From: a bacterium
GTDB taxonomy: Bacteria > Thermosulfidibacterota > Thermosulfidibacteria > Thermosulfidibacterales > JALWSI01
Direction of reading: 5' to 3'
NCBI GenBank assembly: GCA_027080315.1
Contig: JALWSI010000063.1
Location: 1 to 7,659, forward strand
Length of the DNA stretch: 7,659 nucleotides
Part shown: positions 4,870 to 7,642 of the stretch, in pieces
Layout: every line of letters starts with the position of its first letter
Position numbering within the stretch: position 1 is the first letter of the stretch
Notes under the pieces: generated by a model
Seen by the model: the letters and a program-made list of their open reading frames with translations, nothing else
The model's database searches: none
What the model was told of the DNA's origin: nothing
Program-made: the position numbers and the translations under genes

Positions 4870-4898
4870 TTGACCCTATAAATCTTCTTTGCTATAAG
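4870..4898 (+). promoter_or_regulatory. Sigma-70-type promoter of the electron-transfer operon
   Basis: TTGACC (4870-4875) and TATAAG (4893-4898) are each one mismatch from consensus and are separated by exactly 17 bases. Transcription should start near 4905, leaving a 50-base leader before the ATG at 4955. The bases after the -10 box (CGCCCCGCC) are unusually G+C-rich for this region. In E. coli such discriminators make promoters sensitive to ppGpp, but whether that holds here is inference. Confidence 0.7.
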
Positions 4899-4954: not shown

Positions 4955-5821
4955 ATGGACAGACGCAGCTTTCTAAAGGCAATCGCAGCCGGAACAGTCT
5001 CTTTCTCTCTAACGCCTTCTGGTGTCTTAGCTAAAATGCCAGATGGTTCTAAAGAGTTTGTAGGTGTTCTTGTTGATACAACTCGGTGTATCGGCTGCCG
5101 CAGGTGCGAGCTTAGGTGTGCCCAGGTGAACAACTTACCACTACCGGATCCTGACGACAAAAAGGTTTTTGAGAAGGAAAGGTGGGTTTCAGCGGAGCAC
5201 TGGACAATTGTTAACAGGCATAAGACCTCAAAGGGTACTTTCTTTATCAAAAGGCAATGTATGCACTGTTGCCAACCAGCCTGTGCCGCAGCGTGTCCGG
5301 TTAAGGCAATGGAGAAAAAGAAGGATGGGCCTGTGGTATGGAACCCCAACTGCATAGGGTGTAAGACCTGTGCTTTCTCCTGTCCTTGGGGAGTGCCCGA
5401 ACTTGAACCCAAACCATTTCCGAAGATCGGGAAATGCATCTTTTGTTGGCCCAGATTACAAAAAGGGCTTCTGCCTGCCTGTGTTGATACCTGTCCTATG
5501 GAAGCTCTCATCTTCGGTACAAGAAGACAATTGCTGGACGAGGCAAGAACCAGAATCTACAAAAATCCAGACAGGTATCACAGGTATATTTATGGAGAGC
5601 GAGAGGTAGGAGGCACCTCCTGGATGTATTTAACCGCTGCTCCTCCAGAAGAAATGGGGCTCAAGCGAGAGGTGGGCAAGAAGCCTTTGCCTGAGAACAC
5701 AACAGGGTTCCTCTTTGCTGTGCCTTACGTGTTAGTCTTATGGCCGGCGTTCTTACTGGGAGTTCATAAAGCCACTGAAAGAAGAAAAGAGGTGGCCAGC
5801 AAAGAAAACGAGGAGGGTTAA
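4955..5821 (+). CDS. Tat-exported 4x[4Fe-4S] ferredoxin-type subunit with C-terminal anchor (HybA/HmcB-like)
   Basis: This 288-aa electron-transfer subunit probably works on the periplasmic face of the membrane, passing electrons between the NrfD-type partner encoded next and a cytochrome or enzyme. The N-terminus has a twin-arginine motif, DRRSFLK (2-8), followed by a hydrophobic stretch to A26. Sixteen cysteines form four cubane sites: C45-C48-C51-C55, C102-C105-C110-C114, C133-C136-C139-C143 and C161-C164-C176-C180, the pattern of the DMSO reductase B-subunit family. One extra cysteine, C106, sits inside the second motif. A single hydrophobic segment at about 251-270 followed by basic residues should anchor the C-terminus, as in HybA and HmcB. 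The ATG at 4955 is chosen because GGGAGGG lies just upstream and it places the Tat motif at the N-terminus. It is the first gene of the operon, and the next ATG comes 2 bases after its stop. DsrO is the main alternative, but the C-terminal helix and HybB-like neighbour favour HybA/HmcB. Confidence 0.9.
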   Translation: MDRRSFLKAIAAGTVSFSLTPSGVLAKMPDGSKEFVGVLVDTTRCIGCRRCELRCAQVNNLPLPDPDDKKVFEKERWVSAEHWTIVNRHKTSKGTFFIKRQCMHCCQPACAAACPVKAMEKKKDGPVVWNPNCIGCKTCAFSCPWGVPELEPKPFPKIGKCIFCWPRLQKGLLPACVDTCPMEALIFGTRRQLLDEARTRIYKNPDRYHRYIYGEREVGGTSWMYLTAAPPEEMGLKREVGKKPLPENTTGFLFAVPYVLVLWPAFLLGVHKATERRKEVASKENEEG

Positions 5822-5823
5822 AG

Positions 5824-7011
5824 ATGACTGGCTCTTTGATATCTGAACTTAAACCAAAAGGTAAGATCATCACCCCTTTCAACGTGATTAGTGGACTCTT
5901 CATCTTAGTAGGCATAGGCTTCATGATCTACAGATTCATCTACGGCCTGCCTGCGGTGGTCAATGAGGCTCCTGGGTTTCCCTGGGGAGTATGGATCGGC
6001 TTCAACGTGATGGCAGGTGTCGCCTTTGCCGCAGGGGCTTACACCTTAACCTTTGTGGTGTACATCCTAAAGAATGATCTTTACCATCCCATAATAAGGC
6101 CCACAGTGCTAAACGGATTTTTGGCCTATGTGTTTTACGCCGGTGCCATAGTCTTAGATTGCGGAAGATGGTGGCATATCTACAACCCGCTAATAGGAAA
6201 CAAGTTTGGAGTCAATGCTGTTCTGTTCCTCATCGCCTGGCACTTCTTCCTTTACATGCTGGCTGAATTGGTAGAGTTCTCTCCCGCAATCGCAGAGTGG
6301 TTAGGAGCAAAGAGGCTATGGAAGGTCCTTAAAGGCATGACCATAGGTGCCGTGGTGTTTGGAATAACCCTCTCAACCCTTCATCAGTCTGCCTTGGGCG
6401 CTTTGGTTCTCATGGCCGAGCCGAACATACATCCCTTGTGGTGGAGTGAGTGGATACCCGTCCTCTACTTCGTGTCGGGAATATACGGCGGAATCTCAAT
6501 GGTTCTGGTGGAAGGATGGATCAGCATGAAGGCTTTCAGCGACATCATTCCAGAGAAATTCAAAAAGCAGTATCCCAACATCGCAGTAGGATTGGCAAAG
6601 TTTGCCGCAGGTGTGATGTTTGCCTACTTATTCATGAAGCTGTTGGTGCTCATCCACGGTAGACATTGGGATCTTCTTCTCACCCCCATGGGTTACATCT
6701 ACATAATAGAGGTGATTGGTCTAACCTTCATCCCCTTCCTCTTCTTCCTGTTTGGAGCCAAAAACAGAAGCGTGGGTCTCATCAGGTGGGCAGCGGTGCT
6801 GGCAATGTTGGGGATCATCCTCAACCGATGCAGCTACGTCTTCATCGCCTACAAGTGGTATGTCCCCCTCTCCGAGCGTTACATCCCTGCCATCCCCGAG
6901 GTATGGATAGCCTTAACAATAGTCGTGGCTCATATGTGGGCTTACAGGTGGGTTGTTAGAAGAATGCCAGTTTACACCGATCCACCAGAGTGGGCCAAAG
7001 AAGACCACTAA
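5824..7011 (+). CDS. NrfD/PsrC-family integral membrane subunit, HybB/HmcC-like
   Basis: This 395-aa polytopic protein has about ten predicted helices, near residues 17-40, 55-81, 95-113, 130-150, 172-195, 210-232, 255-277, 289-310, 317-336 and 356-378. Family features are GFPWGVWIGFNVMAGVAFAAG (51-71) and TLHQSALGAL (185-194) followed by HPLWWSEWIPVLYFVSGI (203-220), close to the HybB (hydrogenase-2 membrane subunit) and HmcC type rather than the shorter NrfD/PsrC proteins. Members bind quinone in the membrane without heme and hand electrons to a ferredoxin-like partner, which here is the gene just upstream. AGGAGG at 5811-5816 is 7 bases before the ATG. The stop is followed after 17 bases by the small-protein gene. 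Quinone reduction or quinol oxidation are both possible, and the direction cannot be read from sequence. Confidence 0.92.
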   Translation: MTGSLISELKPKGKIITPFNVISGLFILVGIGFMIYRFIYGLPAVVNEAPGFPWGVWIGFNVMAGVAFAAGAYTLTFVVYILKNDLYHPIIRPTVLNGFLAYVFYAGAIVLDCGRWWHIYNPLIGNKFGVNAVLFLIAWHFFLYMLAELVEFSPAIAEWLGAKRLWKVLKGMTIGAVVFGITLSTLHQSALGALVLMAEPNIHPLWWSEWIPVLYFVSGIYGGISMVLVEGWISMKAFSDIIPEKFKKQYPNIAVGLAKFAAGVMFAYLFMKLLVLIHGRHWDLLLTPMGYIYIIEVIGLTFIPFLFFLFGAKNRSVGLIRWAAVLAMLGIILNRCSYVFIAYKWYVPLSERYIPAIPEVWIALTIVVAHMWAYRWVVRRMPVYTDPPEWAKEDH

Positions 7012-7017
7012 AAAACT

Positions 7018-7025
7018 GGAGGTGA
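7018..7025 (+). promoter_or_regulatory. Ribosome binding site of the 64-aa protein gene
   Basis: GGAGGTGA is a full match to the anti-Shine-Dalgarno sequence and lies 3 bases before the ATG at 7029. It is the strongest site in the window and is good support that this small gene is really translated. Confidence 0.85.
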
Positions 7026-7028
7026 ATC

Positions 7029-7223
7029 ATGGGCGAGTTCCATTATGTAGACCTGTTTGCAACAAAGGGAATAGAGTACATCGTGGTAATAATCTACTTG
7101 ATCATTCTAATTCCCTTTTGGAAGTTCTTAACCAGAAACAAGGATAGCTATCGGTACAATCCCCATTCACATCATTCGCATTCAACAACTTCCAATTCTC
7201 CATCTGCAGGAGGAGAAAAATGA
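7029..7223 (+). CDS. Small single-helix membrane protein with His-rich C-terminal tail (HmcD-like)
   Basis: This 64-aa protein has one transmembrane helix (about residues 15-35) and a polar tail containing HSHHSH (46-51). The basic residues after the helix (K32, R36, K38, R42) against an acidic N-terminus predict the N-terminus outside and the tail in the cytoplasm. It is very probably real: an ideal ribosome binding site precedes it, it sits 17 bases after the NrfD-type gene, and its stop overlaps the cytochrome start in ATGA. Its position after a ferredoxin/NrfD pair matches HmcD of the Hmc complex, and the TKGIEY...F..FW pattern resembles small proteins at that position. That likeness is recalled rather than computed. 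Its function is unknown; stabilising the membrane subunit is the simplest guess. The His-rich tail is unusual and could bind metal. Confidence 0.8.
   Translation: MGEFHYVDLFATKGIEYIVVIIYLIILIPFWKFLTRNKDSYRYNPHSHHSHSTTSNSPSAGGEK
7208..7213 (+). promoter_or_regulatory. Ribosome binding site of the cytochrome gene
   Basis: AGGAGG lies within the end of the small-protein gene, 6 bases before the ATG at 7220. Together with the ATGA stop-start overlap it suggests coupled but independently efficient initiation of the cytochrome. Confidence 0.75.
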
Positions 7224-7642
7224 GAAGAGAGACAAACATTATTGCAAGCATCATAATACTCTCTCTGGGGATTTTCTTGGTGTTCGGTTCTCTAAAAACC
7301 TCATATGCAGAAGACCCCCCAGATACCATCACCATCAAAAAGTTGGAGAACCTGTACGGAGAAGTTGAGTTTCCCCACTCAGACCACTTTGAGTACACAG
7401 ACAGCTGCTCAGATTGCCATCACCATTCAGGCGAAAAGACCATAAGCTGTCAAAGGTGCCACAAGCCTTTCAAGGTGTACAAGTATTCGGGGTCCAAAAG
7501 AAAGAATGGATTAGGGCTAAAAGGAGCCTATCACGGAAGATGTCTCAAATGCCATGAAGAAGAGTCTGGCCCCACAGGTTGCACCGACTGCCACGAAAGA
7601 AGAAAGAAACCAACACCTAATTTCTCCTCCGAGAAAGAGTAG
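7220..7642 (+). CDS. Exported tetraheme cytochrome c, class III (cytochrome c3-like)
   Basis: This 140-aa precursor has a Sec signal peptide (basic start, hydrophobic 7-23, likely cleavage after SYA at 30), giving a mature periplasmic protein of about 110 residues. Four heme c sites are seen: CSDCH (63-67), CQRCH (77-81), CLKCH (108-112) and CTDCH (121-125). The distal histidines fit the cytochrome c3 plan: H53 and H56 before the first site, H68 directly after it, and H105 before the third. Every heme can therefore be bis-histidine ligated. H69 is spare. Class III cytochromes shuttle electrons in the periplasm between hydrogenases, formate dehydrogenases and membrane complexes. Here the operon suggests it exchanges electrons with the Tat-exported ferredoxin-type subunit. 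AGGAGG and the ATGA overlap support the start. The stop lies 17 bases before the window end, so more operon genes may follow. Confidence 0.93.
   Translation: MRRETNIIASIIILSLGIFLVFGSLKTSYAEDPPDTITIKKLENLYGEVEFPHSDHFEYTDSCSDCHHHSGEKTISCQRCHKPFKVYKYSGSKRKNGLGLKGAYHGRCLKCHEEESGPTGCTDCHERRKKPTPNFSSEKE

Follow-up and report, generated by a model that had tools for sequence, protein, structure and literature searches.

The window analysed here, a stretch of 7,659 nucleotides that represents an entire contig of an uncultured Thermosulfidibacterales bacterium, carries at positions 4955-7642 genes for a ferredoxin, an NrfD-type membrane protein and a one-helix protein in the same order as hmcB, hmcC and hmcD, followed by a gene for a small cytochrome c3. 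The locus raises the question whether these genes encode a distinct complex type or a shortened Hmc relative, as a preliminary description of the sequence had left it, and in which direction such a complex may pass electrons. Our analysis supports the shortened relative, while a distinct type is too strong a claim, because Nhc and HybA/HybB-like modules are already known. The encoded proteins very probably form a reduced membrane complex that links the quinone pool by electron transfer to a small protein with four hemes, located outside the inner membrane. All open reading frames of this tight and co-directional unit were confirmed, and the following features were assigned.

4870 to 4898, plus strand: promoter-like site TTGACC-17 nt-TATAAG upstream of the unit (pattern match, weak evidence)
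4955 to 5821, plus strand: ferredoxin of the HmcB type, 288 amino acids, Tat-exported and tail-anchored, containing four [4Fe-4S] motifs (HmcB and HybA profiles, cysteine conservation, tree)
5824 to 7011, plus strand: HmcC-type membrane subunit of the NrfD family with about 10 helices, 395 amino acids (profiles, tree, fold match, residue map)
7029 to 7223, plus strand: HmcD-like protein, 64 amino acids, with one helix and a tail rich in His (NF045712, identity with a relative of the same order, short homologues after HmcC)
7220 to 7642, plus strand: tetraheme cytochrome c3, 140 amino acids including a signal peptide (PF02085, PDB match to HmcA, heme ligands, relatives)

Each start codon of the unit is preceded by a GGAGG-like site, and the start of the c3 gene overlaps the stop of the HmcD-like gene by 4 bp. 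The divergent lysC operon upstream was confirmed as lysC-cimA-ribE. The strong promoter assumed in this region could not be upheld, since just the TTGACC-N17-TATAAG site was found and a scan showed that promoter-like sites are not commoner here than in shuffled sequence. The contig ends 17 bases past the c3 gene, so that further genes may follow in this genome, and an assembly-overlap search did not find a second copy of this end.

The ferredoxin bears the Tat motif RRSFLK and a C-terminal hydrophobic tail, and its 16 cluster cysteines are arranged in four motifs, each cysteine being kept in 46-47 of 47 relatives. Its best profile match was HmcB (NF045715, 315 bits, under the NCBIfam equivalog cut-off of 420 bits), and HybA reached 198 bits. 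The NrfD-type subunit scored 337 bits with HmcC (NF045714), 224 with HybB and 32 with QrcD, where the equivalog cut-offs are 550 bits for HmcC and 570 bits for QrcD, and the HmcD-like protein scored 26.5 bits with NF045712 (cut-off 34). All of these subunits score under the NCBI equivalog cut-offs for Hmc. The matches of the unit to HmcB, HmcC and Cytochrom_CIII lie well beyond chance level. An AlphaFold model of the HmcC-type subunit, which was of middling quality (65.7) and used for this comparison alone, matched the fold of subunit C of alternative complex III. The small one-helix protein has no match in PHROGs.

The c3 protein contains four CXXCH motifs and four invariant extra histidines (H53, H56, H68 and H105), and all four bis-His heme sets are conserved. 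It scores 40.3 bits with Cytochrom_CIII (PF02085, cut-off 22.9) and 41 bits with TmcA (cut-off 114), and it matches the C-terminal domain of HmcA (PDB 1gws/2e84); the AlphaFold model of c3 (pLDDT 46) was not used. Its nearest relatives are small c3 proteins encoded beside other HmcB-HmcC pairs, followed by the C-terminal domains of HmcA and NhcA. The length of 110 residues previously given for it applies to the mature part, whereas the full precursor has 140 amino acids. Likewise, its placement where HmcE would be is correct by position, whereas its sequence corresponds to the HmcA C-terminal domain and to the small c3 genes beside HmcB-HmcC. We rejected it as a replacement of HmcE, to which it shows no similarity.

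A relative that belongs to another family of the order (L002) carries these four genes as well, with identities of 87, 86, 92 and 65-70%, the 92% applying to the helix of the HmcD-like protein. There, the unit is located behind different upstream genes and a GC hairpin directly follows the c3 gene. Together with this conservation in a second family, the subunit identities, the operon, its export signals and the cluster and heme ligands can be read from the sequence, and the reading frames, the family profiles and the relatives bear out a B-C-D core like that of Hmc, accompanied by a tetraheme c3. In phylogenetic trees, the window and L002 proteins fall inside the HmcC and HmcB clades, in both cases as sister to Nitrospirota operons (99/98 and 97/88). 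The tree proposed for the NrfD-type protein places it in the HmcC clade, far from HybB, and both proteins stand apart from classical Hmc and Nhc.

The comparison with known systems specifies this position. The unit shares with Hmc (HmcABCDEF) the order B-C-D, homologous subunits and a c3 like the C-terminal domain of HmcA, but it is without the 16-heme HmcA, the cytochrome b HmcE and the CCG protein HmcF. The closest HmcB and HmcC proteins (49-50% and 57-58% identity) are encoded in Nitrospirota TmcD-TmcC-TmcB-HmcA-HmcB-HmcC operons (L003, L004 and L008), in which a short HmcD-like helix also follows HmcC, but which carry a 16-heme HmcA and transmembrane and cytoplasmic Tmc subunits. Loci of other lineages that combine a small c3 with HmcB and HmcC (L146, L149 and L154-L157) encode a standalone c3 of the same sequence type with 4-6 hemes and are likewise without HmcA or a CCG partner within about 6 kb; in contrast to the window, their c3 gene comes first and their HmcC is about 31-40% identical to that of the window. 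No HmcD helix was detected in L146 and L155-L157, whereas the HmcD-like helix of L149 and L154 bears a GcvH-like domain.

The nearest analogue in composition is Nhc (NhcABCD) of Desulfovibrio, a cytochrome-B-C-D complex without HmcE/F (PMC4215793, PMC8076601) and without a catalytic subunit, whose NhcA ends in a c3 domain of the type found in the window. However, NhcA has nine hemes and its gene comes first, whereas the window cytochrome has four and its gene comes last, and NhcC and NhcB, taken from Nhc operons included for comparison, branch among the classical Hmc proteins (100/100 for HmcC) while the window proteins belong to another clade. Judged from sequence, the unit is Nhc-like in its make-up but not a member of Nhc. 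Geobacter Cbc4 (CbcSTU), which we compared by description alone, combines a c-type cytochrome, an iron-sulfur protein and a membrane subunit and likely does the same job; it has been described as menaquinol:ferricytochrome c oxidoreductase, with CbcT grouped with DsrO/SirC (PMC11434368). Qrc (QrcABCD) shares the periplasmic-side exchange between c3 and quinone via an NrfD-type subunit, but the QrcD match is weak, a hexaheme QrcA was not found, and the window unit has neither a QrcB-like subunit nor a Mo-type partner. It also differs from Tmc by the lack of TmcB (CCG), TmcC and TmcD. Pairs of HybA-like and HybB-like proteins with c-type cytochromes have already been described as modules (PMC10924467). 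The window unit is best regarded as a relative of the Hmc and Nhc complexes of sulfate reducers that is smaller and branches off separately.

The direction of electron flow was judged from the content of the own genome (94% complete, 253 contigs), in which absences are not proof. It encodes menaquinone synthesis, a decaheme cytochrome with an MtrB/PioB porin, an octaheme cytochrome and a soluble basic c3 that is found order-wide. Its CCG proteins comprise EtfAB-linked, lactate-dehydrogenase-like, GlpC/LdhH-like and HdrB proteins, but neither HmcF nor TmcB. The large multiheme HmcA reported missing before the unit was indeed absent: the window c3 gene has only four CXXCH motifs, and no HmcA-sized PF02085 match was found in the genome, although the c3 of the window, close to the end of the contig, escaped this search as well, which was therefore not taken alone as proof of absence. 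Also as described before, the unit contains no hydrogenase or molybdopterin subunit; genome-wide, searches for group 1/2 [NiFe] hydrogenases returned just weak Nuo-type matches, dsrA was not found, and no periplasmic Mo enzyme was detected, the single Mo-family protein being adjacent to NuoH and therefore presumably NuoG.

On this basis, which for the direction is genome content only, we favour a minimal Hmc/Nhc-type complex that probably passes electrons outward from quinol through the ferredoxin clusters to c3 and further to periplasmic and outer-membrane cytochromes. The four proteins would assemble into one complex, in which electron exchange with (mena)quinone may take place at the NrfD-type subunit, close to the periplasmic face, and this subunit may take up or release protons via a channel from the cytoplasmic side, while the HmcD-like helix would be an accessory subunit. 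The complex would most likely oxidise quinol supplied by Nuo, by an EtfAB:quinone-type oxidoreductase and by a lactate-dehydrogenase-like enzyme, and the four [4Fe-4S] clusters of the tail-anchored ferredoxin would conduct the electrons to the dedicated tetraheme c3, which may trade them with periplasmic cytochromes. From there, the probable recipients are the soluble basic c3, the octaheme cytochrome or the conduit of the decaheme/MtrB-like type. The location of all redox centres on the periplasmic side, as proposed earlier, is supported by the predictions.

The same complex might run in reverse, with periplasmic c3 as donor and menaquinone being reduced, a possibility that we regard as less likely. 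Qrc acts as c3:menaquinone reductase, a preference for quinone reduction has been suggested for HmcC (PMC6303296), Nhc is given as TpIc3:quinone oxidoreductase (PMC8076601), and a soluble basic c3 is present. However, a periplasmic [NiFe] hydrogenase or formate dehydrogenase to load c3 was not found in the own genome, which does encode outward conduits and cytoplasmic quinol-forming dehydrogenases.

The residues of the NrfD-type subunit bear on the quinone itself. The predicted proton channel is kept in 14 of 15 residues against an overall identity of 33% (P about 2e-6), together with the gate Arg335. The predicted quinone site, a residue list derived from homology models (D68, D119, S137, E141 and S200 in NhcC), is kept in only one of five positions in the window (N61, D112, A132, L136 and A190) and in L002, so that Asp/Ser/Glu/Ser became Asn/Ala/Leu/Ala. 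This difference from HybB, Nhc and Hmc at four of five positions speaks against the favoured reading. All five are present in HybB (28% identity), Nhc and classical Hmc. The change is unusual, because even the quinone-independent OmeB of Dehalococcoides retains these residues (PMC10772276). The proposed quinone role thus stays plausible with regard to the menaquinone genes but is weakened by the altered site. Tentatively, and with low probability, the HmcBC core of this branch could have turned into a minimal c3 oxidoreductase that moves protons, has a rewritten quinone pocket and uses a different quinone or works in a quinone-poor mode, its sole cytochrome being the one c3-type domain common to all Hmc/Nhc cytochromes. 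Similarly improbable is that the usual pocket has ceased to serve quinone in this subunit, so that electron transfer through ferredoxin and c3 drives protons through the kept channel or another quinone is used; the kept channel and the altered site fit this, but the site was derived from homology models, intermediate states (2-3 of 5) occur in related rows and menaquinone synthesis genes are present.

It is very unlikely that the unit belongs to a full Hmc/Tmc complex with HmcE/HmcF-type subunits encoded elsewhere or just beyond the contig end. The nearest HmcC relatives do occur in operons with TmcB, TmcC and TmcD, but HmcE/HmcF and TmcB/TmcC/TmcD are absent from the window and the L002 unit, where the hairpin directly follows c3, and the other small-c3 loci are without such subunits within about 6 kb. 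Downstream hmcE/F genes, for which a search had been suggested, were found neither in L002 nor when the CCG proteins of the own genome were surveyed. Finally, a remnant or helper of the Hyd-2 (Hyb) hydrogenase was rejected as highly improbable: despite the HybA- and HybB-level similarity and a true hyb cluster in another genome of the same order (G004), HybA and HybB are far off in both trees and no large subunit of that hydrogenase group was found in the own genome.

Collectively, the favoured Hmc/Nhc-type complex suggests that HmcB-HmcC plus one c3 domain, which elsewhere is the C-terminal part of cytochromes with 9 and 16 hemes, may be the irreducible part of Hmc-type complexes. At least two separate branches, that of Nhc and that of the window, would have complexes of this size, which would also exist outside the sulfate reducers, as in this genome without a detected dsrA and with an MtrB-like conduit. 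Moreover, the kept channel next to the changed pocket provides a testable case for separating the residues of NrfD-type proteins that serve proton transfer from those that serve quinone chemistry.

The window is one entire contig of a genome (G000; 1.84 Mb, 253 contigs, 94% complete) and carries four co-directional ORFs with short spacers and GGAGG-like sites at their starts, in which the c3 gene overlaps the preceding ORF by 4 bp:

4955-5821, + strand, HmcB-type FeS protein
5824-7011, + strand, HmcC-type protein
7029-7223, + strand, HmcD-like protein
7220-7642, + strand, tetraheme c3

The divergent lysC operon was confirmed as neighbor, accompanied by genes for citramalate synthase and riboflavin synthase. 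The strong promoter also proposed in the preliminary description could not be substantiated; it comes down to a TTGACC-N17-TATAAG match, and promoter-like sites in the region do not exceed those in shuffled sequences. Among nine genomes of the order, two were found to carry the unit, G000 and that of a relative from another family (locus L002), where the four proteins are 87, 86, 92 and 65-70% identical to those of the window and uvrB plus an unknown gene take the upstream place of lysC. The hairpin GGGGGAGTAATGCCTCCCCC directly follows the L002 unit just before the contig end, which cuts its + strand tail, hence it can only be regarded as terminator candidate. Another genome of the order (G004) harbors a separate Hyb-type pair adjoining a [NiFe] large subunit.

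In family-profile searches, the first protein scored higher with HmcB (315 bits) than with HybA (198 bits), the second higher with HmcC (337 bits) than with HybB (224) or QrcD (32), while the third gave a weak HmcD match (26.5 bits). All three stay below the NCBI equivalog cut-offs (420, 550 and 34 for HmcB, HmcC and HmcD), hence they are relatives rather than certified orthologues. Each of the 16 cluster cysteines of the FeS protein is common to 46-47 of 47 homologues, and the Tat motif and hydrophobic C-terminal tail of this protein correspond to the HybA-like tail-anchored design (PMC10924467). The HmcD-like protein ends in a His/Ser-rich tail (PHSHHSHSTTS), the details of which differ in L002.

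The fourth ORF encodes a class III cytochrome with four CXXCH motifs and four further invariant histidines (H53, H56, H68, H105), matching the need of bis-His c3 hemes. Among solved structures, it is best matched by C-terminal domains of HmcA (PDB 2e84, 444-556; 1gws, 433-545). In pairwise ranking it came closest to small c3 proteins that are encoded next to other HmcB-HmcC pairs (L154, 99 bits; L157, 89; L155, 87; L156, 83), followed by HmcA C-terminal domains (up to 65 bits) and the soluble c3 of G000 itself (53). The small c3s grouped with the HmcA and NhcA C-termini in a tree of 38 short domains, with modest support (91/78), and HmcA N-termini and soluble c3 fell outside. These sequence relations suggest that the shared domain is the one meeting HmcB, and that the window complex would carry this domain only.

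Reading the partner genes in HmcB-HmcC neighborhoods gathered from contigs and genomes revealed several types: 16-heme HmcA with HmcE/F or with TmcBCD, nine-heme Nhc, small c3 with four to six hemes, GcvH-like proteins with kinase/NtrC, and Hyb. The HmcC tree places the window and L002 as sister group of Nitrospirota HmcA/Tmc operons (99/98), within a larger clade that also holds GcvH-associated and other pairs. Classical Hmc makes up a separate clade (100/100), in which Nhc is nested; the HmcB tree agrees (97/88). Hence, Nhc and the window complex are alike in make-up yet belong to separate branches, and their small make-up may have arisen through loss or reflect retention of an older small state.

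The Nitrospirota operons (L003:1879-9331, L004, L008) are Hmc/Tmc hybrids, in which TmcD-TmcC-TmcB is joined with 16-heme HmcA, HmcB, HmcC and a 40-aa HmcD-like ORF, and TmcB is split into two ORFs. One to three GcvH-like proteins flank many HmcB-HmcC pairs (L005:2391-3245, L007:4108-4833, L159:5517-6221; also L142, L144, L149, L151, L154, L158, L160, L161, L190, L194). Their lipoyl-lysine position looks unconserved, the HmcD-type helix is fused to a GcvH-like domain at several of these loci, and a histidine kinase and NtrC regulator often follow.

Regarding possible partners, the CCG-domain proteins of G000 comprise an EtfAB-linked quinone oxidoreductase type, a lactate-dehydrogenase-like LdhH, a GlpC/LdhH-like protein and HdrB; neither HmcF nor TmcB is among them, and dsrA and group 1/2 [NiFe] hydrogenases were likewise not found in this 94% complete genome, the sole Mo-type protein of which adjoins NuoH. 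Menaquinone (futalosine) genes are present. A decaheme lipoprotein is encoded directly upstream of an MtrB/PioB-like porin (L209:2890-5794; contig C196), suggesting extracellular electron transfer, and an octaheme HAO-like cytochrome, a radical SAM protein and a basic tetraheme c3 are encoded together (L096:9884-12645; contig C95). This soluble c3 occurs order-wide, with a net charge of about +15. In G004, multiheme cytochromes of very large size, with 26, 16, 8, 7 and 5 CXXCH motifs, are encoded in one cluster (L106; contig C21). The menaquinone genes, the decaheme/porin pair, the octaheme cytochrome and the basic c3 favor an outward path, in which electrons would pass from quinol via the FeS protein and c3 to periplasmic/outer-membrane cytochromes; the main alternative is the reverse direction through the same complex.

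For the HmcC-type protein, a model of middling quality (pLDDT 65.7) gave a match to alternative complex III, subunit C (TM 0.60). Published residue lists were mapped via NhcC sequences, with numbering agreeing with the source paper at 20 of 20 positions. The protein retains eight of nine N-side and all six P-side residues including Arg335, which is far above its 33% overall identity (P about 2e-6). Of the five predicted quinone-site residues only D112 is kept, the changed ones being N61, A132, L136 and A190. All five are present in HybB, Nhc, classical Hmc and several distant sequences, even at 28-38% identity; one of five is kept in the window, L002, the small-c3 loci L155-L157 and the GcvH-associated L161, and two to three in most others of this branch. 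The quinone-independent OmeB has been reported to retain these quinone-site residues (PMC10772276).

The preliminary description had left open a distinct complex type or a shortened Hmc relative. The kind is already known, since Nhc, an Hmc relative with shortened cytochrome that lacks HmcE/F, has been described (PMC4215793; PMC8076601), and modules of tail-anchored ferredoxin, HybB-like protein and cytochrome have been published as well (PMC10924467). What stands is the variant make-up, because no description of a unit with HmcB-, HmcC- and HmcD-type proteins plus tetraheme c3 was found in a search of largely open-access literature. The Geobacter CbcSTU complex has been described with the same job as proposed here (PMC11434368). 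The predicted alteration of the quinone pocket represents the most interesting point of the window complex.
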